Below, one piece after another: positions 29,769-58,095 of a DNA stretch of 64,000 nt (position 1 is its first letter; each line of letters starts with the position of its first letter). Origin of the DNA: Tichowtungia aerotolerans (GTDB lineage: Bacteria > Verrucomicrobiota > Kiritimatiellia > Kiritimatiellales > Tichowtungiaceae); NCBI RefSeq assembly GCF_009905215.1, contig NZ_CP047593.1:3352900-3416899 (forward strand), given 5' to 3'. The position numbers were made by a program, and so were the translations under genes. The notes beneath the pieces were generated by a model, which made no database searches, had not been told where the DNA came from, and saw only the letters and a program-made list of their open reading frames with translations.

Positions 29769-29850
<82 letters not shown>

Positions 29851-29851
<1 letters not shown>

Positions 29852-30009: not shown

Positions 30010-31320
30010 ATGGGACTGGAACTGAGACGGGATAAAAATCACAACCTCCGCTCGAAGTGGTGGTATGGCCGATACATGGTTGACGGGAAACGGCACTTCA
30101 CAAATCTGGGTGTCGAGGTGAAGGGAAAGGTGCCTGAAAACCTGCGCGAACGAGGTGACACGGCCTTTGAATGCTCCCGCACGCTGGCGGCGGCAAAGAT
30201 GAAGGAGCTGCTTGCCGAAGCGCATAACACAAAGACGGCGAAGCATCACCTGCAGGAGCTTTACGAAATTAAGGCGGGTGAAAACATTGCCCAGATTCCG
30301 CTGACGGAACTGGAGGCACACTGGGAGGTGCTGCCTACAAAGCGTAAGCGATCCGCTCAGCAGGCAAAAAACATGAAGGCGAATATTCGGATGTTTCGGG
30401 AGTACATCGAAGCGAATTTCCCGTCAGCAAAGCTGATGTCGCAGATTACCCGCCGGATGGCATTGGGCTGGATGAAGGACATTAACGATCAGGGACTGTC
30501 GGCGACCAGCTACAATGTAAAGCTGTCGCTCCTCCGTGGCATCTTTGAGCAGCTCGGGCCGGAAGCGGGCATGATTGCCAATCCGTTTGCGGGCATTCCC
30601 TACCGCGCCCTGAATACGGTTCATCGTCAGCCGTTCACCCAGGAAGAGCTGAACAAGATTCTGACTCACTGCGACCCGATTCTGCGTCCGGTGGTGCTGA
30701 CGGCCATGTGCACGGCGATGCGGCGCGGTGACTGCTGCCGGCTAAAGTGGGATTCCGTTGATCTGGCCGGCGGCTTCGTGACGGTGAAAACATCCAAAAC
30801 CGGCGAAGTAGCCGAAATCCCTCTGTTTCCGGTTCTACGGGCGGAACTGGAGCACCTGCCCCGCTCCAGTGAATACGTTTTCCCGGAAGCCGAGGAAATG
30901 TATCGCACCAACGTCCACGGTCTTTCATGGCGCTTTAAGAAGGCTCTCAAGGATGCCGAAATCACCGATACGGTGGTTGACCGGGAAGACACCCGCATGA
31001 AAGCCAGCGTGAAGGATTTTCATTCTCTGCGGACTACCTGGATTACAATGGCGCTCTCCGCCGGTGTGCCGATGGAGCTGGTTCGGCGGGTCACAGGCCA
31101 TTCCACTGTCGATGTGGTCTTGAAACACTATTTCCGGCCCGGCAAAGATGCATTCAAAGCGGCATTGGAAACCGCCATGCCGAAGATGCTGACCGGCGGG
31201 GAGCAGAAAAATGAGAAGCCGAAAGATGCCCTGCTTAAACTGATTGAACGGGCGGACAAGGTCTCAAAGAAAGATTTCGTGGCCAAGGTCGCCAAGATTG
31301 CCGAGGAAATGGCGGCGTAA
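30010..31320 (+). CDS. int: Tyrosine recombinase integrase
   Basis: A 436-residue site-specific recombinase catalysing integration at tRNA-Val. The N-terminal arm-binding and SAM-like core-binding domains (~90-195) precede a catalytic domain with Arg in AMRRGDCCRLKW (~238), Lys in TSKTGE (~263), HSLR (His338, Arg341), GHST (His364) and the nucleophile Tyr374 in LKHYF. AAGGAG lies 7-8 nt before the ATG. It is the only confident plus-strand gene of the element and sits 160 bp from attL. The lysine-rich C-terminal tail of ~50 residues is longer than usual. Confidence 0.95.
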   Translation: MGLELRRDKNHNLRSKWWYGRYMVDGKRHFTNLGVEVKGKVPENLRERGDTAFECSRTLAAAKMKELLAEAHNTKTAKHHLQELYEIKAGENIAQIPLTELEAHWEVLPTKRKRSAQQAKNMKANIRMFREYIEANFPSAKLMSQITRRMALGWMKDINDQGLSATSYNVKLSLLRGIFEQLGPEAGMIANPFAGIPYRALNTVHRQPFTQEELNKILTHCDPILRPVVLTAMCTAMRRGDCCRLKWDSVDLAGGFVTVKTSKTGEVAEIPLFPVLRAELEHLPRSSEYVFPEAEEMYRTNVHGLSWRFKKALKDAEITDTVVDREDTRMKASVKDFHSLRTTWITMALSAGVPMELVRRVTGHSTVDVVLKHYFRPGKDAFKAALETAMPKMLTGGEQKNEKPKDALLKLIERADKVSKKDFVAKVAKIAEEMAA

Positions 31321-31417: not shown

Positions 31418-31639
31418 CTACCGAATCCAGGACGTGATGGTTTTCAGGACGGTGATCAGGCCGGTCGGGTTGGTGGAGAGCAACACGATCAGGCTGGTGA
31501 GGAAGACCAGATTCCACTTTTCGAGCTTTGTAACCCGGCCATTGGTTCTGGCGGCGTGGGTGTGGATGGCATCGAGCTTTTCGTCGATGCGGTCAAAACG
31601 CTGCTGGCAGCCGTCGGGCAGTTCATCACAGGATTTCAT
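31418..31639 (-). CDS. Small holin/XhlA-like protein
   Basis: A 73-residue protein: a predicted coiled coil (RFDRIDEKLDAIHTHAARTNGRVTKLEKW) then one membrane helix (LVFLTSLIVLLST) and a short basic end. This coiled coil plus membrane layout is that of XhlA-type phage lysis accessory proteins. It is the last gene of the late block and starts where the upstream peptidase gene stops. Function inferred from layout and position. Confidence 0.6.
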   Translation of the reverse strand: MKSCDELPDGCQQRFDRIDEKLDAIHTHAARTNGRVTKLEKWNLVFLTSLIVLLSTNPTGLITVLKTITSWIR

Positions 31640-32163
31640 CAGGCGGCTCCTTCCGTTCGCAAAATCTCATCGAGTTTAAGGCGGGGTGAAAAGTTGATGA
31701 TGCCGGGGGAGACACGCCACGGGGGAATGCGATCGAGCAATTTGAAATCGACGTGCATGAGACCGGCAAAGGCGAGGCAACTGCAGAACCACGCATCGGG
31801 GTTGTAGTCTTCAATGCGGAAGGTTTGCGGGTCGAAGGTTTGCGGATCGCGTCGGGTGACAAAGCGGGTAATTCCGTTCCAGAAGGCATACGGCTTGCCG
31901 AGTTCGCCGATCAGCCACGAGGTAAACTCCTCGGCCTGCATGTGGGTCAGCTCGGGCAATGTGTAGGCTTTTACGATAGTGCCGGGCGTGTGCTGCGCAT
32001 GAAGAGAATCGACAATGCGCACACCGTCTTCTTCCCGGCTTTTCCACGCTTCGCAGACGCGGCCATCATCAAATTCTATGGCCGTGTGCGACGTACGGTT
32101 CCACGTAAAGAACCGAACGGTCTGGCTCAGGCGACTGATTCCTTCATATTGGAGAATTCTCAT
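31639..32163 (-). CDS. NlpC/P60-like (YiiX-type permuted papain fold) protein
   Basis: A 174-residue protein with the order His before Cys expected of permuted papain-fold peptidases: TSHTAIEFDDG, then DAWFCSCLAFAG. Such proteins act as amidases on peptidoglycan or on lipid-linked substrates. Between a holin-like gene and a small lipoprotein it is the best candidate for the element's cell wall hydrolase. No signal peptide. It overlaps the lipoprotein stop by 4 bp. Confidence 0.65.
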   Translation of the reverse strand: MRILQYEGISRLSQTVRFFTWNRTSHTAIEFDDGRVCEAWKSREEDGVRIVDSLHAQHTPGTIVKAYTLPELTHMQAEEFTSWLIGELGKPYAFWNGITRFVTRRDPQTFDPQTFRIEDYNPDAWFCSCLAFAGLMHVDFKLLDRIPPWRVSPGIINFSPRLKLDEILRTEGAA

Positions 32164-32345
32164 TGGGCTACCGGGATTTGAGCGTCGAGCTGGCCGCCGC
32201 CTTCAAAGCCGGTTGTGGCCTCAGTGTCATTTGTTCCAAGCGCGTTAATGGCCGGACTGCGGCTGTTGATCAGCGAGAGGTTGAGCGTTGTAGTACATCC
32301 GGCCAAAATGCCGGTTGCCAGCAGGATGGTTATCTTCATTACCAT
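32160..32345 (-). CDS. Small phage-type lipoprotein
   Basis: A 61-residue protein with lipobox (ILLATGILAGC). Start chosen at 32345, where GGAGG sits ~8 nt upstream; an upstream in-frame ATG at 32396 lacks a ribosome site. The mature part is Asn/Thr/Gly-rich. Its place in the lysis block suggests an outer-membrane spanin-like role, but no partner i-spanin is evident. Confidence 0.55.
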   Translation of the reverse strand: MVMKITILLATGILAGCTTTLNLSLINSRSPAINALGTNDTEATTGFEGGGQLDAQIPVAQ

Positions 32346-32869
32346 GAGATTGCCTCCACTTCTTCGTTGGTTGTGGCGGAGTCGATCTGGACACATAGAG
32401 CCGCCTCTTTTGCAAACTGCGCTTCGATGAAGTCGTGCATTGCGGACTCCAACGCAATGATCGTCGCATTGGACAGGGTGATAAACGTGCCCTCGGACGT
32501 TTTCCAGTTTGAAACCGTATAGGTTTCGTCCTCCGTGGCCCGGACCTTGGCGGCAGTCAAAAGGGAGCGGGTGCGCTCATCAGTACGACAGAACATGCCG
32601 GAGGCTTCATCGGTGAATCCACCGAACTCCGCATCGTAACGGGATGCCGCAATCTTTGCCTTTTGGGTTTCCTGAGCTTTTGAAAGTTCCGGAATATCCT
32701 GTATCAGCGTTTCTGAACCAAAATCCCAGATGCACGGATACGAGCCTGAAAGCAGCTCTTCCATTTCTTCCGTGACGGTAACAGCAAGAGTGTCGTCGGT
32801 CGCCATGGCCCCGCCATTCGGATAATACAAAACGGCTCCACTTATTTTATTCACTTCGATTTGCTTCAT
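32339..32869 (-). CDS. DUF4376-like phage tail-fibre-associated protein
   Basis: A 176-residue protein. The central and C-terminal part (KIAASRYDAEFGGFTDEASG, CRTDERTRSLLTAAKVRA, TLSNATIIALESAM) has the layout of DUF4376, found in proteins encoded beside or within tail fibre genes. A receptor-binding or assembly role is possible. It overlaps the lipoprotein start by 7 bp. Confidence 0.6.
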   Translation of the reverse strand: MKQIEVNKISGAVLYYPNGGAMATDDTLAVTVTEEMEELLSGSYPCIWDFGSETLIQDIPELSKAQETQKAKIAASRYDAEFGGFTDEASGMFCRTDERTRSLLTAAKVRATEDETYTVSNWKTSEGTFITLSNATIIALESAMHDFIEAQFAKEAALCVQIDSATTNEEVEAISW

Positions 32870-32878
32870 GACTGCTCC

Positions 32879-33400
32879 TTAGTCTGCAACTGCGTAGGCG
32901 TGATAAACAACTGCTCGCGGCGGATACGGCCCCCAGCCAGGCAGAGGGGCATGATCCATATCCATCCAATCGCCCATCGGATGCGCGGGTTGTGCGAATG
33001 TCCCAACATAGTCTCCGTTAATCGTGCAGGTTGAACTGGCAAAATCGAACGTGCTTGATCCGAGCATATACAGCGAAACATCAGACGGATCGACCCAGCC
33101 AACGACCGTCGTGGTTGATCCGATTGCCACTCCATCGATAACGAGTGTTCCTCCCCCGTAAATAAGCTGAGCCGTTAAATAAACTGTGTTTTTAAGAACA
33201 GCCCAATTGTCATCGGAACTTTCCCCGCCTTCTACGGTGAGCATTTCAACACGGCCACCTTCGTTGGTAATGACAGCGATGTCGCCGACGGCAAGACCGG
33301 ATAACGCCAGCTTGGTGGTGTTGTCAGCCACTTCGGAGACAGCGCAGCCGCTTCCTTCAAAACCGGCCACTCGGCCGTCGATGGTCCAAGAATTTATCAT
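32879..33400 (-). CDS. Virion-type protein of unknown function
   Basis: A 173-residue protein rich in Gly, Ser, Thr and Val, predicted mostly beta, with no recognisable domain (LSGLAVGDIAVITNEGGRV; VYLTAQLIYGGGTLVI). Beta-rich composition and position between a beta-sandwich-like gene and the DUF4376 gene suggest a surface or fibre component. Its start overlaps the upstream stop (TGATG). Confidence 0.6.
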   Translation of the reverse strand: MINSWTIDGRVAGFEGSGCAVSEVADNTTKLALSGLAVGDIAVITNEGGRVEMLTVEGGESSDDNWAVLKNTVYLTAQLIYGGGTLVIDGVAIGSTTTVVGWVDPSDVSLYMLGSSTFDFASSTCTINGDYVGTFAQPAHPMGDWMDMDHAPLPGWGPYPPRAVVYHAYAVAD

Positions 33401-33711
33401 CAGTTTGCCTTTCGGATGATTTCGACCGTGCCGTTGATGGCGGTTGAAGTGACGGTGAGCACGTCGTTCAGATTGAAGATGTACGGCGCTTCGGGAATCC
33501 AGGCCGCGGACTGGTTATCAGCCAGATCGACGGTGGCGAGTTGAAAGCTCGTATCGCCGGTTGTGCGGGTGACGGTCAACGTAGCCGTGACCGGCTCATC
33601 AAAAGTGAACAGGACGGCAACCGGAACCCAGGAGCTGTGCGCCTGTGTGTTGGTGATAGAAACAGTGCCGGTGACCAGCGAGTGAACGCTGCTCATATCA
33701 TTAGATTGCAT
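33400..33711 (-). CDS. Small beta-rich virion-type protein
   Basis: A 103-residue protein, predicted beta-sandwich (SWVPVAVLFTFDEPVTATLTV; FNLNDVLTVTSTAINGTVEI). No family recognised. Translationally coupled to the next gene, probably structural. Confidence 0.55.
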   Translation of the reverse strand: MQSNDMSSVHSLVTGTVSITNTQAHSSWVPVAVLFTFDEPVTATLTVTRTTGDTSFQLATVDLADNQSAAWIPEAPYIFNLNDVLTVTSTAINGTVEIIRKAN

Positions 33712-33722
33712 TGATTTGCTCC

Positions 33723-34127
33723 TTATTCTTCAACAACAGAAAGGGATGCGTAAGACGGCGCAGACTGAACTGCCGCTACGACAATCGGAATGGAACCCAT
33801 CCAAACGGCACGCAAAAAGACGTCGGCACGGATGGCAGCGGCGTTTTCGGCTTCAGTGATCGCCAGCCCGATTTCCTTTTTCAGTTCAAAGAGAATCGTG
33901 GTCTGCGCCTGACGCACACAGGAATCATGGATTGCAGTCTCCGGTGACGACGGAACCGGTGCCGCGTTGGCCGCCATTGCAGATCGGTACTCGGTGGCAA
34001 TGGTGCCTATGATGTCTGCAAGCCGTCCGCCCTTATCCGGATCGTCCGTGAGCCACTGCTGATACGACGCATAAACCGTGGGGTTCATGATCGATTCGAT
34101 GTAGGAGACTGTCAGTTCTTTCCACAT
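33723..34127 (-). CDS. Unknown phage protein, possible head completion factor
   Basis: A 134-residue, mostly helical protein (ESIMNPTVYASYQQWLTDDPDKGGRLADII; HDSCVRQAQTTILFELKKEIGLAITEAENAAAI). In Mu-type heads, a small helical connector or completion protein is encoded right after the capsid gene. That analogy is positional only. A hairpin at 34177-34199 separates it from the capsid gene. Confidence 0.5.
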   Translation of the reverse strand: MWKELTVSYIESIMNPTVYASYQQWLTDDPDKGGRLADIIGTIATEYRSAMAANAAPVPSSPETAIHDSCVRQAQTTILFELKKEIGLAITEAENAAAIRADVFLRAVWMGSIPIVVAAVQSAPSYASLSVVEE

Positions 34128-34176
34128 GATTTTTCAGAAGGCTTTAGGCGTTAGGCTATAGGCTTTAGGGAAAATG

Positions 34177-34199
34177 CCGCCCGGGGATTAGCCGGGCGG
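34177..34199 (-). terminator. Hairpin downstream of the capsid gene
   Basis: CCGCCCGG and CCGGGCGG enclose a 7-nt loop, with a short T run after it on the minus strand. It is preceded (34138-34170) by degenerate repeats of GGCTTTAGG/GTTAGGC. It could reduce expression of genes after the capsid gene. Confidence 0.6.
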
Positions 34200-34205
34200 A
34201 GCGGT

Positions 34206-35147
34206 TTAGCTGGCGGAGACGTTGATGCGTTTTGCGGCGGATTCGTTGGAAACCTGGACGTCTTCGGACCAGTCGAACTTGGCGACTTCGACGCGGCCAT
34301 CGTCGCGCTGGTAGGAGCCGGGAACCATGAAGCGGTTCATGAGCCGGAAGGTCTTCATGAAAGACGGATCGCGGCGGGTCGGCTGCGCTTTGCGGGCAAA
34401 GACGAGCACGGCGGAATCGAGCAGGAATTTGACATCCTCATCGACGCCTTCGGGCGCATCGTCAAACACCATGTAGCTGGTGCGCACTTCGGGCGAACCG
34501 ATGAACAGCTCTCCGGCGTTGGCCTGAGTCGGTACGGCAAGACCGACACCACTGCGGGCACCGGAACCGACAACAAAACGCCCGCGAACCTTGGTCTGAT
34601 TTTTGAACACGTTCCATGCGGACGCGCCGAACAGAACGCCGATGTTCATGAGCGAGCCGTATTTGCAGGCTTTGATGACATCAAGAATCGTGTCGTCAAT
34701 GTCGGCAACCGGATCGGCGGCATCGTTCCAAGTGGAATCCGCGCCAGGGCCGACGGCTTCGACGGCCAGGTCGATCACGGTTTTTTCGTGAGCCAGACCG
34801 GCGACTTCGGCGACGGCGACCGCGCCTTCGCGGAGCATGTTTTCCAGACCTTCTGCTTCGAGCTGTTCGAGATTATCCACCGGATAATCGAGAGCATGCG
34901 GGGAGCAGTTGAAGGTGGCATCGCTGACTTCGAAGCGCAGTTCGGACGCGCGGCCTCCGAGCGCACGAAGCGTCTTCGGAATGTGGAAGCGGTGCTTTTC
35001 GGTGTATTTCTTGAACCGTCCGGTCGAAGTCGGGACTTCGATGGTCGGGGCGATGAAGTCCGCCACGGGCATGATGGCGCTTTGAGCGGCACCCTGCGCG
35101 AACTGGCGGAGCATCGGACTGGAACTGATTGTAGTCAAACGGGACAT
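34206..35147 (-). CDS. Major capsid protein (HK97-fold candidate)
   Basis: A 313-residue protein with the style of HK97-fold capsid proteins: N-terminal IMPVADFIAPTIEVPTSTGRFKKYTEKHRF, a long spine-helix region (EGLENMLREGAVAVAEVAGLAHEKTVIDLAVEAV), MNIGVLFGASAWNVFKNQTKVRGRF, and the late PTRRDPSFMKTFRLMNRFMVPGSYQRDDG. It lies directly after decoration and protease/scaffold genes, the standard head order. No N-terminal delta domain is visible, consistent with a separate scaffold. Confidence 0.85.
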   Translation of the reverse strand: MSRLTTISSSPMLRQFAQGAAQSAIMPVADFIAPTIEVPTSTGRFKKYTEKHRFHIPKTLRALGGRASELRFEVSDATFNCSPHALDYPVDNLEQLEAEGLENMLREGAVAVAEVAGLAHEKTVIDLAVEAVGPGADSTWNDAADPVADIDDTILDVIKACKYGSLMNIGVLFGASAWNVFKNQTKVRGRFVVGSGARSGVGLAVPTQANAGELFIGSPEVRTSYMVFDDAPEGVDEDVKFLLDSAVLVFARKAQPTRRDPSFMKTFRLMNRFMVPGSYQRDDGRVEVAKFDWSEDVQVSNESAAKRINVSAS

Positions 35148-35162
35148 GGGATTCTCCTTTGG

Positions 35163-35585
35163 TTAAGAAATGGTGATGGTTCCGAGGTTGGCGGGACGAG
35201 CGAGCACGAGCTGGTCGGCAACTGCTTTTTCTTCAGCAATGGCAACGACGCGGTAGGTTCCGGCAGCGCCGGGCAACACAGTTACTTTTCCGGCCTGCCC
35301 TTCAACTGACGGATCGGCCAGTACAAGTTTATCTCCCGGGAGACAGGAGCCGATAAGGGGAAGTCGCACGTTGGCGGCAGGCGACAACGGAAGGAAGTAT
35401 CCGGCTTCGTCGGCGGCGGCACCTTCGAGAATCAGATAGAGGGCGAGATCATCCTGATTGCTCGGCAAACGCGCCCACGGCCCAATAAGGTTGTGGGTGA
35501 GGACTGCGAGATGATCCGAGGCGGCGGTGAGGTCTTCACCACAGGGGAACGTTACGGGACCGAATTTGACGTTGGACTGGGACAT
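35163..35585 (-). CDS. Capsid decoration-like protein
   Basis: A 140-residue, beta-rich protein (NVKFGPVTFPCGEDLTAASDHLAVL; LVLADPSVEGQAGKVTVLPGAAGTYRVVAIAEE). Small beta proteins between protease/scaffold and capsid genes are generally head decoration or stabilisation proteins (DUF2190/gpD-like place). The C-terminal part, with 'V.G.AG.Y.VVAIA', fits DUF2190. Good AAGGAG upstream. Confidence 0.65.
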   Translation of the reverse strand: MSQSNVKFGPVTFPCGEDLTAASDHLAVLTHNLIGPWARLPSNQDDLALYLILEGAAADEAGYFLPLSPAANVRLPLIGSCLPGDKLVLADPSVEGQAGKVTVLPGAAGTYRVVAIAEEKAVADQLVLARPANLGTITIS

Positions 35586-35603
35586 GGTATTTCTCCTTTT
35601 TGG

Positions 35604-36107
35604 TTAATCAGCGAATTCCTGTTCGGCACGGCGGAAGGCATCGGTATAAACGATTCCTTCGGCCTTCATAATTTCATTTGCCCGGTTGCGGATTTTGACC
35701 GCCTTGGATTCAGAGGCGGCGGCGTCCCGATTGCGGGTCGCGGCAATCTTTGAATCGCGGTTATGAAGCGGGCGGCGGGTATCCGCAGCCGGAGCGGCGG
35801 CAGGCTTTTGGGTTTTCAGGTTTTTGAATACCGCCTCGGTCAGTTCGCGGTTTTCAATAAACTGAGCGCGGACTTCGTCGCGGTTTTCGATCAGGGCGGC
35901 GTTGGCTTCGCAAAAGGCATCGGCGTCCGCTTCGAGCTGGGCGGTCTGAAGATCGGCGAGCGAGCTTTCGGCGGTTTCCGCCCGGTTGGTCAGCGCGGCG
36001 GCTTCATCCGCCGTCGCCATGTTTTCAATGGCAGCGATCAGATCGGCCTCGGCGGTATCGGCGGGCAGATTCAACTTATTGAGCAAAGCATCAATGACAG
36101 GTTGCAT
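35604..36107 (-). CDS. Nested head scaffold protein from internal start
   Basis: In-frame internal start (MQPVIDALLNKLNLPADTAE) preceded by AAAGGAG 6-7 nt upstream on the minus strand. The 167-residue product is helical and Glu/Ala-rich, like phage scaffolds. Known precedent: Mu Z and lambda Nu3 are nested in protease genes. The ribosome site is seen directly; expression is inferred. Confidence 0.65.
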   Translation of the reverse strand: MQPVIDALLNKLNLPADTAEADLIAAIENMATADEAAALTNRAETAESSLADLQTAQLEADADAFCEANAALIENRDEVRAQFIENRELTEAVFKNLKTQKPAAAPAADTRRPLHNRDSKIAATRNRDAAASESKAVKIRNRANEIMKAEGIVYTDAFRRAEQEFAD

Positions 36108-36638
36108 GGTTTTCTCCTTTTGAATTTTGCCTAAAGCCGAAAAATCAAACGGCTCGGCGGGGTTACGGTTCGAAAGGGGCAAAATCCCCTTTAAATTGGG
36201 GTCGTTGGTGACGGCGGCATTCAAAAGGCGCACCGGACGAAGGCGGTCGTTGCCCAGATCTTCGCAATCCGATTTCGCCCAGACCGGAGACAGGAAACGA
36301 TAGCGACCGCCCTTTACGGCGGCTTCGCCGGTATCGCTCCAACGAATCTGGGCAAACAGTCCGCCGCCGTTCGGCATCAATTTCAGATCGGTGATCCAGC
36401 CAGCCGCTTCGGAATGTTTGGCCGCATCAAGGGAGAAATGATCGAAGTCGATCAGCAGACCGGGGAAATTGTCAGACGAATTTTTGATTGTTTCAAACGC
36501 TGTGACCATTCGGTTACAGGCGGCCTCGTCAATGATCTGGGTGACTCCAGCGGCGGCATGGGGAAATTCGCCCAGCGGGGCGAGCTGATACCAGCCGTCC
36601 TTGGGAAGCTCAAAATTACGATTCAGGATTAAGTTCAT
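35604..36638 (-). CDS. Mu gpI-like head maturation protease with C-terminal scaffold
   Basis: A 344-residue protein. Residues 1-165 are Mu I-type protease (GLLIDFDHFSLDAAKHSEAAGWI; GGRYRFLSPVWA; LLNAAVTNDPNLKGILPL). The rest is a coiled-coil scaffold (AAALTNRAETAESSLADLQTAQLEADADAF). Between them lies a copy of a repeat otherwise found at gene starts, read in frame as FDFSALGK. An internal ATG at 36107 has a perfect ribosome site, so the scaffold is probably also made separately, as Mu makes gpZ from within I. Confidence 0.85.
   Translation of the reverse strand: MNLILNRNFELPKDGWYQLAPLGEFPHAAAGVTQIIDEAACNRMVTAFETIKNSSDNFPGLLIDFDHFSLDAAKHSEAAGWITDLKLMPNGGGLFAQIRWSDTGEAAVKGGRYRFLSPVWAKSDCEDLGNDRLRPVRLLNAAVTNDPNLKGILPLSNRNPAEPFDFSALGKIQKEKTMQPVIDALLNKLNLPADTAEADLIAAIENMATADEAAALTNRAETAESSLADLQTAQLEADADAFCEANAALIENRDEVRAQFIENRELTEAVFKNLKTQKPAAAPAADTRRPLHNRDSKIAATRNRDAAASESKAVKIRNRANEIMKAEGIVYTDAFRRAEQEFAD
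36130..36152 (-). repeat. Start-associated repeat, copy 1 (before nested scaffold start)
   Basis: Minus-strand GTTTGATTTTTCGGCTTTA, 45 bp upstream of the ATG at 36107. Here it lies inside the protease frame and is translated. Confidence 0.6.
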
Positions 36639-36660
36639 GGCCTAAGAGCAAAAATCAAAC
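36639..36660 (-). repeat. Start-associated repeat, copy 2 (portal stop/protease start)
   Basis: Minus-strand GTTTGATTTTTGCTCTTA, directly abutting the protease ATG; its TGA is the portal stop codon. Confidence 0.6.
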
Positions 36661-37803
36661 GGACTGTTTTTCAGTGAGGGTGTAGCCGGTCTTTTCGGAA
36701 AGCTCGGCGGGGTCGATCTGCATACCGGCGGACTTGAGATCAATCGCATCCTGCACCACCTGGCTGGTGGCATGATTGAGACCGGGCGAAAACTCGAAAT
36801 ACGCCAGCGGCGGCTGTCCGGGAAAAAATTCAGCGAGAAGCGGCACGTCAATCGCGTTCTGCAAAACACCCGCCAAGGTGACGGCGTCTGACTTGGCGAT
36901 CTGAAGGAAGCTGTCCTGATGCGCACTGCCGGCGAGCGTTCCGCTGCCGGGCTGGGCAAGCATGGTCAGCAGTCCGCCGGTGGCGGCAATGGTGATCTGC
37001 TCATCGAGATATTTGATTTGTTCCTGAAACGGCGGCTTCTCGCCTCCGCCGGTCACAAACTTAATGTCACTCTCATGCGGCAGGAATCCTCGCCCGTTGG
37101 AAAGAATTTGCTCGGCGACGGCCTGATATTCCTTTTGTTTGGCTTCGTCTGCGTTGGGAGGCCCGACCAGGAAGATTGAGGGAATGCCATAAACCGAGAG
37201 GAAGGAATCCCAGTCTGATTGCGACAGGTTTTTGCGCAAATAGAGAACACTCAGGATGCGGTCGAGTGCCGGTGCCTCAAGGAGAACAAAGTTTTCCGGC
37301 TTGATGGACTCGCCGCGCCGGTGGCCGGAGACCGCTCCAGCGTTGTATTCCCAATCGCCGAACAGGCCGTCGCGCACCCAGAACCATTGTTCGACGGGCT
37401 CAAGGCGTTCAATTAGGCCGCCGGGTGTCCAATGTTTTTCGAGGTGGGCAAAGCCCCGGAAGAAACCGGTGAAGAGGAAGGAAACCGCTTCGCGAAAATT
37501 ATCGATGCTGTCATAGACCATGCGCAGGAAGTCGGCCTGCTCCTGGGCGAGCACATTGTCCTGTTCCTGCGAAACGATGCGCACATCCCAATCGAGAGAA
37601 AGCAGCGCAGCGCGGCGGCGCTGAATGACCGAATGGATCATCGCGTCGGAACGTTCCATGTAATAATAGAACCATTGGAGGTCGGCATACTCGCCGCGCT
37701 CCCCGGATTCCTGCAGGGCGACCAGCCTCTGCATGTTCAGCCCGCGCAACGGGTTGGTGGAGTCGCGATAGCCGTGGTCTTTAGTTGAGCAGATGTAGCG
37801 CAT
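36655..37803 (-). CDS. Portal protein, Mu gp29/DUF935 family
   Basis: A 382-residue protein; the ring of this protein forms the DNA channel of the head. Family features: DLQWFYYYMERSDAMIHSVIQRRRAALLSLDWDVRI, FLRMVYDSIDNFREAVSFLFTGFFRGFAHLEKHW, and NFVLLEAPALDRILSVLYLRKNLSQSDWDSFLSVYGIPSIF. Somewhat shorter than Mu gp29 (512), mainly at the C-terminus. It lies between TerL and protease, the usual Mu-like head order. Confidence 0.88.
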   Translation of the reverse strand: MRYICSTKDHGYRDSTNPLRGLNMQRLVALQESGERGEYADLQWFYYYMERSDAMIHSVIQRRRAALLSLDWDVRIVSQEQDNVLAQEQADFLRMVYDSIDNFREAVSFLFTGFFRGFAHLEKHWTPGGLIERLEPVEQWFWVRDGLFGDWEYNAGAVSGHRRGESIKPENFVLLEAPALDRILSVLYLRKNLSQSDWDSFLSVYGIPSIFLVGPPNADEAKQKEYQAVAEQILSNGRGFLPHESDIKFVTGGGEKPPFQEQIKYLDEQITIAATGGLLTMLAQPGSGTLAGSAHQDSFLQIAKSDAVTLAGVLQNAIDVPLLAEFFPGQPPLAYFEFSPGLNHATSQVVQDAIDLKSAGMQIDPAELSEKTGYTLTEKQSV

Positions 37804-37822
37804 AAAATTATCTCTTTGTTTA

Positions 37823-37846
37823 TGCCGTAAGGCGAAAAATCAAATC
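37823..37846 (-). repeat. Start-associated repeat, copy 3 (terL stop/portal start)
   Basis: Minus-strand ATTTGATTTTTCGCCTTA right after the terL stop, ~20 bp before the portal ATG. Confidence 0.6.
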
Positions 37847-39116
37847 AGCCGGGCAGAATGCGGGGACGTTTAGCGAAGGGTGAAAAGCGGCCTCTGGGCG
37901 TGAGCGGCAGCATCGGGCCGACAGATTCGGTTTCCCAACGGCGGTGATTGGCGAGAGCGAGTGCCATCACGCAATCGTCGTGGAATCCCGCCGGGGCGTT
38001 GTACGAAAACCGTCCACGGGCCGAAATTTCGTATTCGTACCGCTGCATCTCGTTAGTGAGAACCTGCCACTCTTCCGGCCAGCTCACCCGCTGTTGTTCG
38101 ACGGCAACAATGAGCCGTTGGACCAGTTCCACTTTGGATTGCGCCGTGAATTTAAACGGTTCGATGTTGGAATACCGTCGCGCCAGATCGTCATAGATCG
38201 GGTCGCCGGCGCCGGTCGCGTCCAGAATGATGCGCCCGCGCCATTTGCGGGCGAACTCAAGGATGCGGTCTTTTTGGATCGGCCAGTCGAGCTGGTTGAA
38301 GCGTTCCATGTCGAAGCAGCGGCCCGTCCGCTGATTCATGGCGACAAGCACGGTAAAATCGGTATGCTTGGCGACATCGCATCCGATGACCACCGCCCCC
38401 GCGCGGTCTTCGCGGGTCAAAGCTCCTTGAGGGAACAAACAGGACGAGACGTTTCGGAACACCCCTGCGCTATCTTCAAGGAACTGCGCTTCGTATTCCT
38501 GCTTGAACACATCGGCAGGCAGAGTCCGTTTGGCATCCTCCCATTCCAAAGACGGAAAGTAAGGGCTGTCCGAGCTGGGGAATTGGAAAGCTGCGTAGTC
38601 CGGCTCTGCCGGATCTTCGCCGCGAGTGAACAGATCGTAGAACCAGTTTCGGCCCTTCGGGGTCGAAATGAACACGGCCCAGCCCAACGTCTGAGCAATC
38701 GTCGGGCGCAGGATGTAGTTCCACACATCCGGCGGCACGACGGCGGCCTCGTCCACCACCACGCCGCGAAAGCCGTAGCCGCGAATATTTTCGGGGTTGT
38801 CGGCAGAGAGGAACCAGATGCGGGTCGTGCCATACGGGCCGTCAAACTCGGCGCGGGTCGGAGTGCGCCCGACGAACCGCACAAAACCACCGGCAATGTC
38901 GCGCAAGGCTTCTTTGCCGCGCTCGGCGACGTTGTAGGTCGGCGCAACCCAGCCATAGTCGCCGGGAGCTAAGGCTCCTCGGTCGAGCAGCTCTCCGGCA
39001 AGGCAGAGGGTTTTCCCGAAGCGTCGCCCGGTGCAGATAACGCGGAAGCGTCTGTCGCGGGCGTCGTGGATAATCTGTTGCCCTCGGTGGGGACGGTAGT
39101 TGAGAGTGATAGCCAT
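37845..39116 (-). CDS. terL: Terminase large subunit
   Basis: DNA packaging motor. I choose the ATG at 39116 (MAITLNYRPHRGQQIIHDAR), giving 423 residues. ATPase motifs: Walker A CTGRRFGKT (~27-35) and Walker B GVVVDEAA. Nuclease domain: VVIGCDVAKHTDFTVLVAM and ILDATGAGDPIYDDL. The first 148 bp overlap the 3' end of the small terminase gene in another frame. Confidence 0.92.
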   Translation of the reverse strand: MAITLNYRPHRGQQIIHDARDRRFRVICTGRRFGKTLCLAGELLDRGALAPGDYGWVAPTYNVAERGKEALRDIAGGFVRFVGRTPTRAEFDGPYGTTRIWFLSADNPENIRGYGFRGVVVDEAAVVPPDVWNYILRPTIAQTLGWAVFISTPKGRNWFYDLFTRGEDPAEPDYAAFQFPSSDSPYFPSLEWEDAKRTLPADVFKQEYEAQFLEDSAGVFRNVSSCLFPQGALTREDRAGAVVIGCDVAKHTDFTVLVAMNQRTGRCFDMERFNQLDWPIQKDRILEFARKWRGRIILDATGAGDPIYDDLARRYSNIEPFKFTAQSKVELVQRLIVAVEQQRVSWPEEWQVLTNEMQRYEYEISARGRFSYNAPAGFHDDCVMALALANHRRWETESVGPMLPLTPRGRFSPFAKRPRILPG

Positions 39117-39358
39117 GAGACGACTCCATCGTTTTCGATTTGCAAAGACGCTTCTTTGGGAAGCAGCGGCATGATGATGCGGCGGAAGAACCAAACGGGA
39201 TCACGCTCCAGCGACTTCTGGAGTCCATTGCGAAGAGTTTGCATCGTGGTTTCATCGCCGAGCATCTCGTCGAGCGTGTCGAGCGCGAGCATGCGCCCAG
39301 CGCCCGATCCTCTGGGTCGGCCTGCGGGATTTCCTGATTGTCCGGGCTTAAATTTCAT
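38969..39358 (-). CDS. terS: Small terminase subunit candidate (DUF5681-like N-terminus)
   Basis: A 129-residue protein beginning KFKPGQSGNPAGRPRGSG, the DUF5681 motif common in small terminase-like proteins, followed by a helical region (MLALDTLDEMLGDETTMQTLRNGLQKSLERDPVWFF). The last ~49 residues (Ser/Thr/Pro-rich, low complexity) overlap terL in a different frame, so the tail is probably constrained by terL. It is the first gene of the head block. Confidence 0.7.
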   Translation of the reverse strand: MKFKPGQSGNPAGRPRGSGAGRMLALDTLDEMLGDETTMQTLRNGLQKSLERDPVWFFRRIIMPLLPKEASLQIENDGVVSWLSLSTTVPTEGNRLSTTPATDASALSAPGDASGKPSALPESCSTEEP

Positions 39359-39381: not shown

Positions 39382-40255
39382 ACAGCCTGAGGGCGGTGTT
39401 TGCCGTTTCACTTTGTTTCACTGCCGTCGCTTCGCGCCAGCCACTGCCTACGGCGGTCAAATTGTTTCAGGTTTCCTGTTAAAACAGGGAAAAACAGGGG
39501 GCGCGGAGCGCCCGCGACGCGCCGGAAGGGGGGTCCCTCCGGGGGGAAACCAAGAATGTGAAACATTCTGAAACGGAGCGGACTCCGTCGTTCCAGTCAG
39601 TCGATGCATCTTCGATGTCCACCCACCCCCGCCCTTCGGGCACCCCCTGCCTCCGTCCGAGGGTCGGAAGGATTTTGTCCGGGGTTTGGAAAAAATCCGG
39701 CCCCGCGTTCCGATGGTTGGAAAATTTCCGCTTCCAGTTTTGCCGCTGCGCTTCTTTTCGGGAATACGAAAAGCACTTTCGCCCCGCGCGGCGGGTCTCA
39801 GGTCCGAGCATTGGAAAATCTGGGGCTTGTTCTTCCAGAGCTTGGAAGAATTCCTTCCAAGGGTTGGAAAAATCCGACGGATTTCTTCCAGACATTGGAA
39901 AAAATACCGCGCCCCCGGCAAGGGAGGCCGAAGGCCGCGACGCTATTGCGGCGAACTTTTCCGAAGGCGGCGGCAAGGGAGGGAACCGCAGAATGACGAA
40001 CAAGGAATGCCGAATCCTGAAGGTTGGAAATTCGCCGGTGTGGGTGGGATGAGATTCGCCGCCGAGGAAATTCCCGTGGGGGTGAACGGAAGCGGTGGGC
40101 GTGGAGCAATAGCATAGGCGGGAGGTCGGCTGGGCGTTGCGCGTCGCCGCCTCGGGACGTGCTGCTTCCCGCTACGTTTCGCAGGACCGAATCCCGGCTC
40201 CGCTTTGCGCCGCGCCTGCCGCTGGAGTGAGACACCACCCCCACTGGACTTGACT
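39382..40255. other. Non-coding GC-rich stretch with hairpins and clustered palindromes
   Basis: No convincing gene on either strand; the long open frames are stop-poor GC artefacts without domain or ribosome site. It contains hairpins such as CCTGTT/AACAGG, GGGCGC/GCGCCC and AGAATGT/ACATTCT (39553-39569), plus three 15-bp TTCCA/TGGAA palindromes between 39833 and 39900. It may be the leader of the late transcript, since the sigma-like regulator and head genes lie on either side. Confidence 0.5.
39833..39900. repeat. Cluster of three 15-bp TTCCAnnnnnTGGAA palindromes
   Basis: TTCCAGAGCTTGGAA (39833-39847), TTCCAAGGGTTGGAA (39855-39869) and TTCCAGACATTGGAA (39886-39900), with weaker copies at 39708-39722 and 39802-39815. 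Same motif as the copies scattered through the whole window. Confidence 0.75.
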
Positions 40256-41234: not shown

Positions 41235-41702
41235 TCACTGGCAGGATTTCTGCCAAGACGGACGACGGGAACGCCAACGCTGACGCTTCGCCGCCTTCTC
41301 AGGAAACAACGCACGAAGAATCGGAAAATCACGCATAGCCATCTTATGGCGCATATCGGCAAGCTGGGTGGACGTACCCTGACGTTCGGCAATGTCCTTG
41401 TACCGCAAACCCTGAAACCGCCACGCAACAACATCGCGTTGCTCGGGGGGAAGCTCCATCAACGCTTCAACAAACTTCGATAAAACCTCAACCGGCATCT
41501 CCTCCGCCAGCGGAACGGTTGATTTCGTACGCTCAAACGCCGGATGCTCGATAGGCTCCAGAGGGCGATCCGTATCAAGGTAGACTGAATAAAACGTATC
41601 CTCACCCAGCTTGCAGGTCGCACAAGGCATCGCGCCCCAGGGAACGCCGTCATAATCACCGCGCAGGATGGCTTCGGAGTACTGACAGGAATGACAGGTC
41701 AT
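41235..41702 (-). CDS. Sigma-like transcriptional regulator with zinc-binding N-terminus
   Basis: A 155-residue protein. Start at 41702 with GGAGG 6 nt upstream. N-terminal CHSCQY...CATCKLGED looks like a zinc site. The later LMELPPEQRDVVAWRFQGLRYKDIAERQGTS matches sigma-70 region 4 helix-turn-helix ('LP..qR.v...r..glsy.eIAe..g.s'). It probably activates the late block downstream. It sits between the candidate RNA and the repeat-rich origin-like segment. Confidence 0.7.
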   Translation of the reverse strand: MTCHSCQYSEAILRGDYDGVPWGAMPCATCKLGEDTFYSVYLDTDRPLEPIEHPAFERTKSTVPLAEEMPVEVLSKFVEALMELPPEQRDVVAWRFQGLRYKDIAERQGTSTQLADMRHKMAMRDFPILRALFPEKAAKRQRWRSRRPSWQKSCQ

Positions 41703-41732
41703 AATACACCTCCGGCGCAGAGGGAGAAAGTA

Positions 41733-41981
41733 ATGACGCGCCCGAAGGGATAATGACGCGGACAAGAGAGCCAAAAGCGCGTCATCATAGGGAGAGAATT
41801 TTTAATGACGCGGAACATGACGCGCAGGAAACCACTGCAAACAGGGCTCTGCGTCATCTGCGTCATTATACCATTAGTATTAGAAATATAATATAAATAG
41901 GGAAAACCGCCCCCCAGCGTGTCCGAACAGGGCGAAATACGCGTCTGAGAGACTTTTTCAAATATGATGTCACATGACGCG
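41733..41981. repeat. Iteron-like cluster: eight TGACGC motifs around an AT-rich segment
   Basis: ATGACGCG at 41733, 41753, 41805, 41817 and 41974; inverted CGCGTCAT at 41778; GCGTCAT at 41851 and 41860. Between them 41863-41900 is almost pure A/T. The layout resembles a replication origin with a DNA unwinding segment, or operator sites for the adjacent regulator. Confidence 0.6.
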
Positions 41982-41987
41982 CTCGGG

Positions 41988-44093
41988 CTAAAACGGGACT
42001 TTTTCATCGTCATCTCCTTGTGAAAGCTGTGCGATATTGATGTCCCAAATCCGGGTAGCATGTTGGCGACGCTGGGAAAGTGGATAGCCTTGGGATGCGA
42101 GCTTGGATAATTCCCGTCCGACCTGACGGGTGGTGTATTTAGAAGCGATACCGGCGAGACCGTCCTGATCGTTCAGCATGGCCGAAAGAAGCTCGGTCGC
42201 CGAACCGGTCCAGACATCGGAAACCTGTCCCTCGAAAAATTTCAGCAACACTTCAAGGAACGAATAGGCACTGGATGAATGACGCGCCGCCTCGAACAGA
42301 GACGCTTCGCAATACGTTTGAACACCGTAGCGGGAATCACCCAGCACGTGATCCGGCGGCGACCAGTCGAGAAGCCATCGCAGGAGAAACGGCAACTCCG
42401 CCTGAATAATGTCCGCCACATTGTTGGGAAAGGTAAAGGTATCCCGCTCCGCCACACGGAAGAGATTGATTTTATCGCGGTTCGACAAATCCACATCGGG
42501 AAGAATACGAATCGACTCCGGGTCGGTGTTACAAGTCACCACCACACGACCGTTCCACTCGATCAGTTTGTCCACGCGATATTTTTCACGAACAGAAAAG
42601 GTACGATTGGCCGCCATCTTCTTAATCAACGCGGAAAACTTGAGATGAGATTTGTTATCGGTCAGAGGAACGACATCATCGACCGCCCAGACGGCAGAAT
42701 TAAACAGGTGCGAATTGAAACCGTCTTCACCGGACAAAAACGACGAAGCATCAATATGGCCGCCGAAAGTGCGGGAGAGAATCAGGGTCGAGAGCAGAGT
42801 TTTTCCAGTGTTCGGAACGCCGGCAAAAAAGGACGCCTGACCGGGAAGCATTTTTCCGGCAAGAGCGGAAGAATACCAACGCCGCAACCAGGCATAGAAA
42901 TAATCGAGCTGCTCTGCCGGATCGAACAGGGAAGTAAAATAAGAATTCAACCACGGGAAATCGGTGTCGGGATCGACCTCTGTTTTCTCCGAAGGTTGCA
43001 TGACCGAAACCGTGGAAATATTCAAAACCCGGAAACCATTGACGTACACAATCCCCTTCGGGCGATGGATCAACGGTGCCGCACATTCAATGGCCTGCTC
43101 ATCCTGAATTTGGGATAACGCCTGATCGACTTCACTAATGGATGAACCTCTCGGAACTGCCGTACTGAGGCCCCGCTTCACCTTCAGAAACAGAGCCATA
43201 TCCGATTTGTTTTTCGCCTGCCACTTACCGTTGGAAAGCTGCACCCAATAATCACGACCGTCAAAATAAGCTGAGGAAACCGCTCCCCCGATCTGATCGG
43301 CCTGGAACTGACGTACGAACTTCCCGCCGAGAATTGCCGACCACGGAACGAACGCCTGTCCTCCGGTAAAACATTGCATCCCGGACTCACGGATGACCGC
43401 CGCTGTTTCATTGTCGGCTGACGCATCCCAGAACCGGGCACCGCGCACGCCGACTTCAAACTCACCCTGCCATTGTCCCGGATATTGTTTTTCAACTTCT
43501 GCCGCGATCAGCTCCATCGGGATCGAAGGACCTAATTTTTTCCATGCGTAGTTATGGGTCGATTCAACCGCCCACTGCATCATGAAGGGAGCCGGAATTA
43601 CATCGTCCGACAGATGAACCCATTCCGTACCGGCCTCGTAGTATTTTGCCGGATCTTCAAAGGCATCCGTATCGAGACCAACCAGAATTTTTGAGAGCTT
43701 GAGTTTTTTCTTAACGTGCTTGAGCAGCTTCGCCGTCAGATCATTTTTGTGCAGCGGAAAGGGTTTCTCCAGTTTCCACAGTAATCGAGCACCGCCTGAA
43801 AAGGTTCGGCAGATGTATTGGGGTTTGAAATCTCCACACCGTTCCAAAACCGTGTCGCGCATGTGTTGATCGATCTGTCCATCGTAGTCGGCAACCAGCC
43901 AGTGCAGGAAGACCGCCGGATTGTTTTTGGAATCAATGCGGGATGCGGCGACCAATCCTTCGAGACCAGAATAAAAACAGTGATCCACATCGGGTTTGTT
44001 CCACTTTGTTTTCCGAGGTGCCTGAGTCGTTGTATTCCACGGTTCACATTCGGTGGCATGACAGGAGGATAAATTTTTGAGGGATAAAAGCAT
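41988..44093 (-). CDS. Primase-helicase (D5-like superfamily 3 helicase)
   Basis: A 701-residue protein. The N-terminal half resembles archaeo-eukaryotic-type primase modules (LHWLVADYDG; YICRTFSGGARLLWKL; LVGLDTDAFEDPAKYYEAG). The C-terminal half is an SF3 helicase: Walker A FAGVPNTGKTLLS, Walker B AVWAVDDVV, and VVVTCNTDPESIRIL (motif C with sensor Asn), followed by a winged-helix-like end. It would start replication of the element. A TTCCA-type palindrome (42803-42817) coincides with the Walker A codons. It is 10 bp from the polymerase gene. Confidence 0.85.
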   Translation of the reverse strand: MLLSLKNLSSCHATECEPWNTTTQAPRKTKWNKPDVDHCFYSGLEGLVAASRIDSKNNPAVFLHWLVADYDGQIDQHMRDTVLERCGDFKPQYICRTFSGGARLLWKLEKPFPLHKNDLTAKLLKHVKKKLKLSKILVGLDTDAFEDPAKYYEAGTEWVHLSDDVIPAPFMMQWAVESTHNYAWKKLGPSIPMELIAAEVEKQYPGQWQGEFEVGVRGARFWDASADNETAAVIRESGMQCFTGGQAFVPWSAILGGKFVRQFQADQIGGAVSSAYFDGRDYWVQLSNGKWQAKNKSDMALFLKVKRGLSTAVPRGSSISEVDQALSQIQDEQAIECAAPLIHRPKGIVYVNGFRVLNISTVSVMQPSEKTEVDPDTDFPWLNSYFTSLFDPAEQLDYFYAWLRRWYSSALAGKMLPGQASFFAGVPNTGKTLLSTLILSRTFGGHIDASSFLSGEDGFNSHLFNSAVWAVDDVVPLTDNKSHLKFSALIKKMAANRTFSVREKYRVDKLIEWNGRVVVTCNTDPESIRILPDVDLSNRDKINLFRVAERDTFTFPNNVADIIQAELPFLLRWLLDWSPPDHVLGDSRYGVQTYCEASLFEAARHSSSAYSFLEVLLKFFEGQVSDVWTGSATELLSAMLNDQDGLAGIASKYTTRQVGRELSKLASQGYPLSQRRQHATRIWDINIAQLSQGDDDEKVPF

Positions 44094-45995: not shown

Positions 45996-46067
45996 GGCAG
46001 TTTCCAGAGGTTGGAAGGTTGAAAAAAGGGAGAGGCGCGCCCGGAGGTCACGCCCCACCCATCCGGG

Positions 46068-46838
46068 TTACAGCAGGGTTGTGAGGAATTCGATGAACTC
46101 GTCACCGTGCTTGCCGTGCTGACGAAGACGGGGAACAAACACGAGATTGGTTCCCAGTTTTTCGCGGCGCACCTGAAGCGTCCATTTGCCTTTGTGCAGT
46201 TCCGGCAGTCCGGTTTCCTTGTTGCGCAGGGCGAACCGGGCGGCGGTGTTGATCGCTTTTCCTGCCCGGCTGTAGGCCGATCCCTTCATTGTCCACAGAG
46301 CCAGCTCATAGGCTTTGCCGTCCGGTCCCTGAATCGAGAATTCCTCGGCCAGTTCCTCCGTCGGTGATTCGATGAGAACCAGAGCGGTGAGCATCGGACG
46401 CCACGGCGGCTTCTCGTCGTTGCGCCAATCAATCCAGCCCCCGCGCTCGTGAACTTCATCGAGCGTATCCACCGTTTCCGGGGTTTCGTCAGACTCATAC
46501 GGCAGATTCTCGGAAAACTGCTTTTTGGCATTCAGGATCGTGACATTGAGTGCCTCGCCCCATGTTTTCGGATCGGTCGATGCAGGCAGGACAATGATGT
46601 CCTTGTTCAGCACGACCGCGCCGGGATCGAAGTCCTCGGAAAGCGGCCCGACACTCTGCACGATGTTGATTCGGGGAAGACGAAAGTCGCCTTCTTCGAA
46701 GTCACCGGCAATTCCTCCAATAGGCGGAATTTCAGATGCCGGATGACTGAGTTCTGCTGCCGGCACGGTGGCCGGTACCGCTGATTTTTCTTCTGCGGCT
46801 TCGGTTTTCTTGTCTTTTTTGAACGATGATGTAGCCAT
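46068..46838 (-). CDS. Replication-module protein of unknown family (DUF2815-like position)
   Basis: A 256-residue protein with a low-complexity N-terminus (KKDKKTEAAEEKSAVPATVPA) and a beta-rich body (FRLPRINIVQSVGPLSEDFDPGAVVLNKDIIVLPAS; PMLTALVLIESPTEELAEEF; KWTLQVRREKLGTNLVFVPRL). In related phages the gene between DUF2800 and the polymerase is a DUF2815 single-strand DNA-binding protein; that role is inferred from position only. I do not recognise the family. Confidence 0.6.
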   Translation of the reverse strand: MATSSFKKDKKTEAAEEKSAVPATVPAAELSHPASEIPPIGGIAGDFEEGDFRLPRINIVQSVGPLSEDFDPGAVVLNKDIIVLPASTDPKTWGEALNVTILNAKKQFSENLPYESDETPETVDTLDEVHERGGWIDWRNDEKPPWRPMLTALVLIESPTEELAEEFSIQGPDGKAYELALWTMKGSAYSRAGKAINTAARFALRNKETGLPELHKGKWTLQVRREKLGTNLVFVPRLRQHGKHGDEFIEFLTTLL

Positions 46839-48189: not shown

Positions 48190-48328
48190 AGTAAATACTC
48201 CGTATTTCTGTTGATAAGTTGATGGTTGGTGAGAGCCCGCGCCCGGCATGTTGCGAACCGGGCACGGTAAAAAGCCACAGTTGCATCGGAGATGGTGGGC
48301 CGCGTGCTGGATGGGGATGTTTCATCAT
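48176..48328 (-). CDS. Possible 50-codon gene coupled to the ERCC4 nuclease gene
   Basis: ATGATG at the ERCC4-type gene's TGA (ATGA overlap) with GGAGGG 3-4 nt upstream, a strong ribosome site. The product (MMKHPHPARGPPSPMQLWLF...) is Pro-rich without recognisable domain and runs 14 bp into the membrane protein gene. The ribosome site could instead be incidental, as it lies within the codons for QEGE. Confidence 0.3.
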   Translation of the reverse strand: MMKHPHPARGPPSPMQLWLFTVPGSQHAGRGLSPTINLSTEIRSIYYGNL

Positions 48329-48777: not shown

Positions 48778-48941
48778 AGTTCACCGCCTTCTGCTACAGC
48801 ATGCTTGGCGAAAAATTCCTCTGGATCATCAATGCCAAACTGGAAGTTGAACTGTTTAAACAGACAATCGATTGCCGCTTCGGCAGCATCGCCACCGTCT
48901 TGGGCGAGCTGGTAGTTTTGGAGGAAGGTTTGCTTATCCAC
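48774..48941 (-). CDS. 55-residue acidic protein with GTG start
   Basis: Begins GTG at 48941, with GGAGG 6 nt upstream, and reads MDKQTFLQNYQLAQDGGDAA, then a helical acidic body ending AEGGEL. It fills the gap between the HTH gene (8-bp overlap) and the ERCC4 gene (4-bp overlap), so three genes are coupled in a row. Too short for family recognition. Confidence 0.65.
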   Translation of the reverse strand: MDKQTFLQNYQLAQDGGDAAEAAIDCLFKQFNFQFGIDDPEEFFAKHAVAEGGEL

Positions 48942-58076: not shown

Positions 58077-58095
58077 GCGTATCTCCCAAGAACTA

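Follow-up and report, generated by a model that had tools for sequence, protein, structure and literature searches.

Can a temperate element that builds its own head do without a tail, or does it borrow one? The question is raised by a phage-like element integrated in the chromosome of Tichowtungia aerotolerans, which we analysed within a stretch of 64,000 nucleotides (NZ_CP047593.1, positions 3,352,900 to 3,416,899 of the forward strand; hereafter the window, whose numbering applies unless a locus is named). An earlier note, made from the sequence of the window, had described the late genes of this element as a complete head and packaging module lacking tail genes and had proposed a capsid-forming satellite, with a very short-tailed or degraded phage as the alternative. 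Our analysis points tentatively, at just short of an even call, to a lineage of self-replicating phage-like elements of bacteria of the Planctomycetes–Verrucomicrobia–Chlamydiae (PVC) group that has kept head, motor, and Mu-type neck and has lost the tail.

A head and packaging module in four colinear elements

The element spans 33.9 kb of the window, the extent given in the earlier note, and is flanked by a 51-bp direct repeat (50 of 51 positions identical). Its host genome is complete, as one contig of 3.88 Mb. Among the assigned genes, the integrase lies on the plus strand and all others on the minus strand; from the left end, the order is integrase, late block (31418-39358), sigma-like gene, replication block, excisionase-like gene, and defence island. 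The ends of the element and the late block are as follows.

29801-29851: left attachment repeat, in the 3′ part of a tRNA-Val(gac) gene (29769-29845)
63690-63740: right attachment repeat, the copy of 29801-29851
38969-39358, minus strand: terminase small subunit-like protein (TerS), 129 residues (PF18932, DUF5681, 4e-8; position)
37845-39194, minus strand: terminase large subunit (TerL), 423-449 residues depending on the start (phrog_2, 8.2e-49; PF03237, 6.7e-11)
36655-37803, minus strand: Mu-type portal, 382 residues (PF06074 Portal_Mu, 4.6e-48)
35604-36638, minus strand: Mu-like prohead protease/scaffold, 344 residues (PF10123, 1.5e-28)
35163-35585, minus strand: decoration-like protein, 140 residues (position and conservation; no family match)
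34206-35147, minus strand: major capsid protein, 313 residues (phrog_1005, 5.8e-27)
33723-34127, minus strand: head-tail (neck) adaptor, Mu gp36-like, 134 residues (hhalign and match to Mu neck structure)
33400-33711, minus strand: p103, jelly-roll virion-like protein, 103 residues (AlphaFold2 model; BFVD match)
32879-33400, minus strand: putative variable fibre or spike with N-terminal W-x-x-D-G anchor, 173 residues (motif common to the post-p103 gene of relatives)
32339-32869, minus strand: DUF4376 fibre-associated protein, 176 residues (PF14301, 5e-19; phrog_10508 tail fiber, 4.3e-22)
32160-32345, minus strand: small lipoprotein, about 61 residues, possible spanin (lipobox read from the sequence)
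31639-32163, minus strand: permuted papain-like (C92, YaeF/YiiX) enzyme, 174 residues, candidate for lysis or membrane attack (homology to proteins of loci L077 and L080)
31418-31639, minus strand: small membrane protein, 73 residues, possibly holin-like by its layout (coiled coil, then membrane span)

All six head and packaging genes of the earlier note (TerS, TerL, portal, protease, decoration-like, and capsid) were thus recovered. A Mu-type portal, protease, and neck adaptor are traits of the Mu-like head lineage (Caudoviricetes). The terminase was nearest to that of Tunturiibacter phage Tunturi_4 (34.7%) and, lower down, to that of Thermus phage P23-45 (30.9%). The capsid protein had no match among 50,697 phage records, so that no phage of this kind is described among those records; among named organisms, the nearest relative of its gene belongs to Pontiellaceae bacterium B12227 of the Kiritimatiellota (L053).

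When the capsid protein was used as a query, three further copies were found in the host genome at 95-96% identity, and we refer to the four elements as E1-E4, E1 being that of the window. They are colinear, with DNA identity mostly about 75-90%, and sit at different tRNA genes wherever a tRNA was found: E2 adjoins tRNA-Val(cac) and E4 tRNA-Pro(cgg), while neither a tRNA nor an integrase was seen near E3. The ratio of nonsynonymous to synonymous substitution rates (dN/dS) was 0.00-0.35 for every E1-E4 gene pair in which it could be computed. E1-E4 are under purifying selection and, with all computed ratios below 0.36, the element does not look decayed.

Tail genes are missing across a clade

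The element proteins that were scanned contained no member of a tail tube, sheath, baseplate, or tape-measure family and no Mu-type sheath, tube, baseplate, or transposition genes; outside the late block of the complete E1, the proteins scanned likewise contained no tail gene. The largest product encoded after the capsid gene has 176 residues, so the earlier note was right on both the missing module and this upper size.

We gathered relatives from 35 viral contigs, 56 genome loci, and further viral contigs, and computed a capsid tree from the 114 loci with a capsid protein of sufficient length. In this tree, 44 rows, E1-E4 included, formed one clade (bootstrap 100, not fully settled; SH-aLRT 91). 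The record titles name Kiritimatiellota, Lentisphaerota, Verrucomicrobiota, and one Armatimonadota contig. Profiles for the adaptor, the tail terminator, and a tube-like protein were then built from a relative outside the clade (L093) and run against six-frame translations of 123 loci; "terminator" and "tube" are our reading of gene order and sequence, as the profiles carry no label. Presence was counted where the sequence continued for 3 kb or more past the capsid gene, i.e., in 31 loci of the tail-less clade and 53 other relatives. The adaptor was present in 31/31 and 50/53 loci, respectively. In contrast, the terminator was found in 0/31 loci of the clade versus 37/53 others (Fisher 1.6e-11), and the tube in 0/31 versus 23/53 (Fisher 5e-6), the constant absence among relatives that the earlier note had proposed looking for. 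Since the terminator profile found no match in 16 of the 53 other loci with enough DNA, absence from a single locus proves little, and it is the contrast between the groups that carries the argument. In eight loci, the capsid gene and the integrase lie on one stretch, 1.6-5.1 kb apart, which leaves no room there for a tail module; upstream regions were read in a minority of the relatives. Terminator and tube are also missing from two loci outside the 44-row clade, L106 and L125; L108, with a 26-residue capsid match and no capsid gene call, was excluded from the counts.

A tally with PHROGs gave no tail-named family and one head-tail connector for the tail-less set (119 of 181 post-capsid proteins, 29 loci), and 77 families for the control (119 of 158 proteins, 15 other loci), the first 25 of which include tail fibre, tape measure, tail collar, and adaptor. 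Because PHROGs covers these phages poorly, this tally was replaced by our own profiles. Together, the four colinear copies, the dN/dS values, and the clade-wide pattern indicate that the absence of the tail module exceeds what chance or decay would produce.

The first gene after the capsid encodes a neck adaptor

The profile of the 134-residue protein was aligned by hhalign with that of the adaptors of ten relatives outside the clade, giving 98.9% and an E value of 2.3e-17. The set comprised 10 of 14 first-after-capsid proteins; those of L041, L046, L093, and L101 were dropped as a different, signal-peptide protein. The link was confirmed independently by a search whose only seed was the L093 adaptor. 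The predicted structure (predicted local distance difference test score [pLDDT] 86) matched the Mu neck subunit, which we take to be gp36, with Z 10.2-10.5, and more distantly Sf6 gp7 (Z 6.6) and P22 gp4 (Z 5.8), while unrelated chains reached at most 4.2. The 134-residue protein is a head-tail adaptor, i.e., part of the neck and not of the tail proper.

Receptor-binding candidates and their predicted export

The model of p103 is a confident jelly roll (pLDDT 92.8). Among predicted viral proteins (BFVD), its matches include phage virion structural proteins (TM 0.78/0.76 for one of them), so that the structure search suggested in the earlier note ends in a likeness to small phage virion proteins. 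Against the PDB, it matched generic jelly rolls (TNF, nucleoplasmin, and GOLD; Z up to 9.5), and because the jelly roll is common, we read no function from the fold. The gene that follows varies in length and content between elements, and in most loci its product begins with W-x-x-D-G, directly after any predicted signal peptide; L072, L097, and L105 are exceptions, two of them with other layouts or truncated gene calls. One version carries YadA-head repeats (PF05658, 1.2e-19), and the 173-residue protein of E1 had no significant family match. Such a layout, in which the anchor stays constant and the remainder can be exchanged, suggests a receptor-binding fibre. The 176-residue protein is a DUF4376 protein that PHROGs files as "tail fiber protein" (phrog_10508), which means that a fibre-type gene is present in the element, the one point on which the earlier note needs correcting. 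Taken together, the 103-, 173-, and 176-residue products resemble jelly-roll and fibre proteins. Between the fibre and DUF4376 genes, E2 (L005, 11074-11706) carries a sulfotransferase-like gene, with equivalents in E3 and E4; the assignment was made by scanning the E2 copy.

Signal peptides were predicted with a home-made predictor that applies our own rule of thumb. Most p103 and fibre proteins of relatives carry them: they were predicted on both in L015, L018, L019, L020, L021, and L053 and were missing from both in E1-E4. Lacking export, the two proteins of E1-E4 have hardly any place to act other than the particle. Across loci, signal peptides were predicted for 75 of 163 post-capsid proteins in 53 tail-less loci versus 49 of 392 in 70 others, and for 2 of 183 versus 7 of 183 head proteins; relative to a chromosomal control (14 of 53 proteins), the excess in tail-less post-capsid proteins is modest (p 0.016). 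Signal-peptide-like starts, unusual for virion proteins, were also seen in tailed PVC phages (L047, 18147-20624; L101, 5964-7751 and 9117-11156; L093, 10982-11371).

Several loci encode exported proteins beside the capsid, in the gap between decoration and capsid genes (L054, L055, L058, and L064, 84 residues; L024, 245; L031, 250; L106, 217). Despite their very different lengths, these share a similar DPxTxxRExxRV-like N-terminal stretch and are possible exported head fibres. In L077 (6491-8749), L106 (5950-8214), L072 (3710-6808), and L073 (5799-8891), a protein of 752-1032 residues is encoded between the protease part and the scaffold part of the prohead gene. The 752-residue protein of L077 had no match in Pfam, PHROGs, or solved structures, and a 753-residue protein of L061 had none in Pfam or solved structures.

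Lysis candidates

The 174-residue protein had no Pfam match of its own. It is homologous (36-42% identity) to proteins of L077 and L080 that match PF05708 Peptidase_C92 at 3.2e-6 and 2.5e-5. In E1-E4, its gene adjoins that of the 73-residue membrane protein, which is kept in all four elements (dN/dS 0.00-0.12) and has no family match. For both proteins we infer a role in lysis.

Among the last late genes of five relatives, sub-threshold matches to prokaryotic phospholipase A2 were seen (E 0.0007-0.03; L022, 11655-12053; L055, 7355-7750; L057, 6043-6405; L058, 15058-15492; L076, 10461-10865), with an HD pair in those that were read; a sixth phospholipase-type candidate, in L025, gave no match. 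The late region of one tail-less element also encodes a lipoprotein with a caspase domain (L055, 6286-7098; Peptidase_C14, E 1.2e-16). Beside the lysis genes of E3 (8711-10135) and E4 (8903-10330) lies a gene for a protein of 474/475 residues, 93% identical between the two and presumably with a Schlafen/AlbA-like N terminus.

Integration, replication, regulation, and cargo

The element has replication genes of its own (polymerase, primase, and nucleases), and the polymerase and restriction cargo read in the earlier note were matched to a family A polymerase and a type III restriction-modification system.

30010-31320, plus strand: tyrosine integrase, 436 residues (PF00589, 1.2e-16; phrog_1, 7.5e-46)
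41235-41774, minus strand: sigma-70 region-4-like regulator, possible late-gene activator (PF08281, 3.4e-8)
41988-44093, minus strand: primase-helicase, 701 residues (PF19263 DUF5906, 2.3e-6; phrog_1156, 3.2e-7)
44103-46058, minus strand: family A DNA polymerase, 651 residues (PF00476, 8.7e-24)
46068-46838, minus strand: 256-residue protein, possibly single-stranded DNA-binding by position only (conserved in the four elements; no family match)
46863-47939, minus strand: DUF2800 PD-(D/E)XK exonuclease (PF10926, 4.3e-33)
48325-48777, minus strand: ERCC4-type nuclease (PF02732, 8.2e-12)
48934-49224, minus strand: excisionase-like HTH_17 protein (PF12728, 2.5e-6)
53080-62101, minus strand: defence cargo, with type III restriction-modification (53080-58283) and SNF2-type helicase (58745-62101)

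PADLOC assigned REase_III (1080 bits), MTase_III (7.9e-220), and HKD+Snf2 (4.9e-134) to the defence cargo. At the border of the replication and defence blocks lies a pair of genes (49336-51706; 405 and 387 residues) without matches in Pfam or PADLOC, replaced by diverged pairs in other elements. Between the terminase and sigma-like genes, degenerate TTCC-N-TTGGAA motifs cluster at 39650-40040, in DNA that holds no convincing gene; elsewhere in the window, the motif occurs as single copies.

Search for a helper phage

The earlier note had suggested looking for a tailed helper prophage in the same genome, and none was found: profiles for Baseplate_J, PhageMin_Tail, Phage_portal, GpA_ATPase, PF03354, phrog_2, and the related tube and terminator detected no tail, portal, or terminase in the complete host genome beyond E1-E4. 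Searching with phrog_2 returned exactly four terminases, those of E1-E4. A single weak GpA_ATPase match was a zinc-ribbon-like protein (the ribbon being read from the sequence) and not a terminase. Among 14 genomes of the family, most of them incomplete drafts, three had tail-less elements and a fourth (G012) a related tailed phage; the two types occurred together in 0/14. A virulent or unrelated helper, which would be invisible to genome searches, is possible.

Comparison with known systems

According to PMC10690885, capsid-forming phage-inducible chromosomal islands (cf-PICIs) carry TerS, TerL, portal, protease, capsid, and head-tail connector and no tail genes, and the Streptomyces phage satellites MulchRoom and MiniFlayer have their own head genes and a head-to-tail adaptor, to which MiniFlayer adds a tail fibre of its own; the satellite precedent is also drawn from PMC11389934. 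Like cf-PICIs, the element is integrative, encodes its own capsid, protease, portal, connector, and terminase, and lacks tail genes. It differs in its 33.9 kb, family A polymerase, sigma-like factor, probable lysis genes, receptor-binding fibres, and PVC hosts, and in that no helper is known for it. An HNH endonuclease, which cf-PICIs have beside the packaging genes, was not found among the element proteins scanned, where small open reading frames were only partly covered. MulchRoom and MiniFlayer are without replication genes, whereas the element has them.

With the Mu head and neck, the element shares portal (PF06074), protease (PF10123), and the neck subunit fold (Z 10.5); unlike Mu, it has no tail genes, a phrog_2-type terminase, and a site-specific integrase in place of transposition genes. 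Tailed PVC phages of the same capsid family (e.g., L093, with a capsid identical to that of L017 of the same genus) have a capsid 50% identical to that of the element, a homologous adaptor, and some exported virion-region proteins. They differ in having a tail terminator and a tube, and their terminase is about 25% identical. Tailless double-jelly-roll phages, of which the Autolykiviridae are an example, are likewise tailless and integrative, with a different capsid fold and packaging. Their genomes are described as smaller than 16 kb (PMC11630473). Our literature search, thin on subscription journals and bioRxiv, found no paper describing the present lineage.

A tailless phage or a borrower of tails?

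We favour an autonomous temperate "neck-and-fibre" tailless phage over a tail-borrowing satellite, because no helper is visible and the element has genes for replication, a sigma-like factor, fibres, and probably lysis; the preference is tentative, the case for and the case against being nearly in balance. If so, the excised element would replicate itself, the sigma-like factor would switch the late genes on, and the adaptor would close the filled heads, on whose neck or head p103 and the W-x-x-D-G fibre would sit directly as receptor-binding spikes. In relatives, the spike proteins would travel through Sec and come into contact with the heads once lysis ruptures the envelope; the holin-like protein, with a C92 or phospholipase-A2-like enzyme, would open the envelope, perhaps at entry too. 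The resulting particle would be a tailless or neck-and-fibre phage. The fuller claim is that of an HK97-fold, terminase-packaging lineage truly without a tail, with receptor spikes mounted directly on a head and Mu-type neck, Sec-exported in most members and joining the head at the envelope break, and with a phospholipase-like or C92 enzyme replacing tail-driven delivery; taken as a whole we regard it as possible and rather doubtful.

Several points weigh against a tailless phage. We know of no tailless HK97-fold virus of bacteria, and no DNA-delivery device was identified in the element. The lineage is known here from its genes, with no particle seen, and the retained adaptor is exactly what a borrowed tail would dock to. 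Self-replication is not uniform, because E3 lacks the polymerase and has a different primase. In one sub-branch (L025-L027, L067, and L076), no fibre was recognized from the capsid gene to the integrase or contig end. Nor is export a mark of tail loss, because fibres of tailed relatives (L047 and L101) carry signal peptides too; export is a wider habit of these phages. Finally, a related tailed phage is present in the same genus (G012).

The main rival is a capsid-forming satellite, whose own heads would dock via the adaptor on the tails of a co-infecting or resident tailed phage; its fibres would give the particle new targets or, as described for MiniFlayer, hold it to the helper. We consider this a serious possibility, and one open to considerable doubt. 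A head with an adaptor and no tail is the published cf-PICI layout, and MiniFlayer combines head genes, adaptor, and its own fibre (PMC10690885); this precedent and the retained adaptor favour a satellite. Some tailed phages, that of G012 among them, share the capsid family and have a homologous adaptor; several copies occur per genome, e.g., four in the present host and three contigs of CAMBRF01; and E3 lacks the polymerase. On the other side, the lysis candidates, sigma-like factor, polymerase, and modular receptor proteins exceed the cited cf-PICI definition, and the complete host genome offers no helper tail or other terminase, just as none of the 14 family genomes holds both types. Of the satellite proposed in the earlier note, tail-lessness, own heads, and retained adaptor thus stand, while its own replication, sigma, lysis, and receptor genes and the lack of a co-occurring helper speak against it. 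A minimal short-tailed phage, with a very short podovirus-like tail assembled on the adaptor from p103, fibre, and DUF4376 protein, is improbable: Sf6 gp7 and P22 gp4 have the adaptor fold too, and fibre genes directly follow the adaptor gene, but nozzle, needle, and ejection protein were not recognized, p103 is a plain jelly roll, and the sister L076 has only products of 159, 84, 95, and 134 residues between capsid gene and integrase. Still less probable is a decayed prophage or gene-transfer-agent-like remnant. Decay commonly shows itself in a missing tail, but the four copies are intact and colinear under low dN/dS, the attachment repeat is intact, the pattern is clade-wide, and the replication set is full. 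We give hardly any credence to the exported post-capsid proteins being surface proteins of the lysogen (for adhesion or superinfection exclusion), with a particle of one of the other kinds; signal peptides, lipoboxes, and YadA-head, BNR-propeller, and caspase-like domains in relatives would fit, but E1-E4 have lost export yet keep the N-terminal anchor, their copies are under selection, and the genes lie in a late structural operon.

The tail is regarded as the hallmark delivery device of bacterial viruses with an HK97 fold. If the particle proves to be tailless, a selected, clade-wide loss of the tail with the neck kept would provide a system for asking how a head delivers DNA without a tail. 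If the element is instead a satellite, then elements that borrow tails can match phages in gene content, down to a polymerase, lysis proteins, and receptor proteins of their own. The signal peptides predicted on fibre-region proteins of PVC phages, in turn, raise the testable question of how virions gain exported parts.

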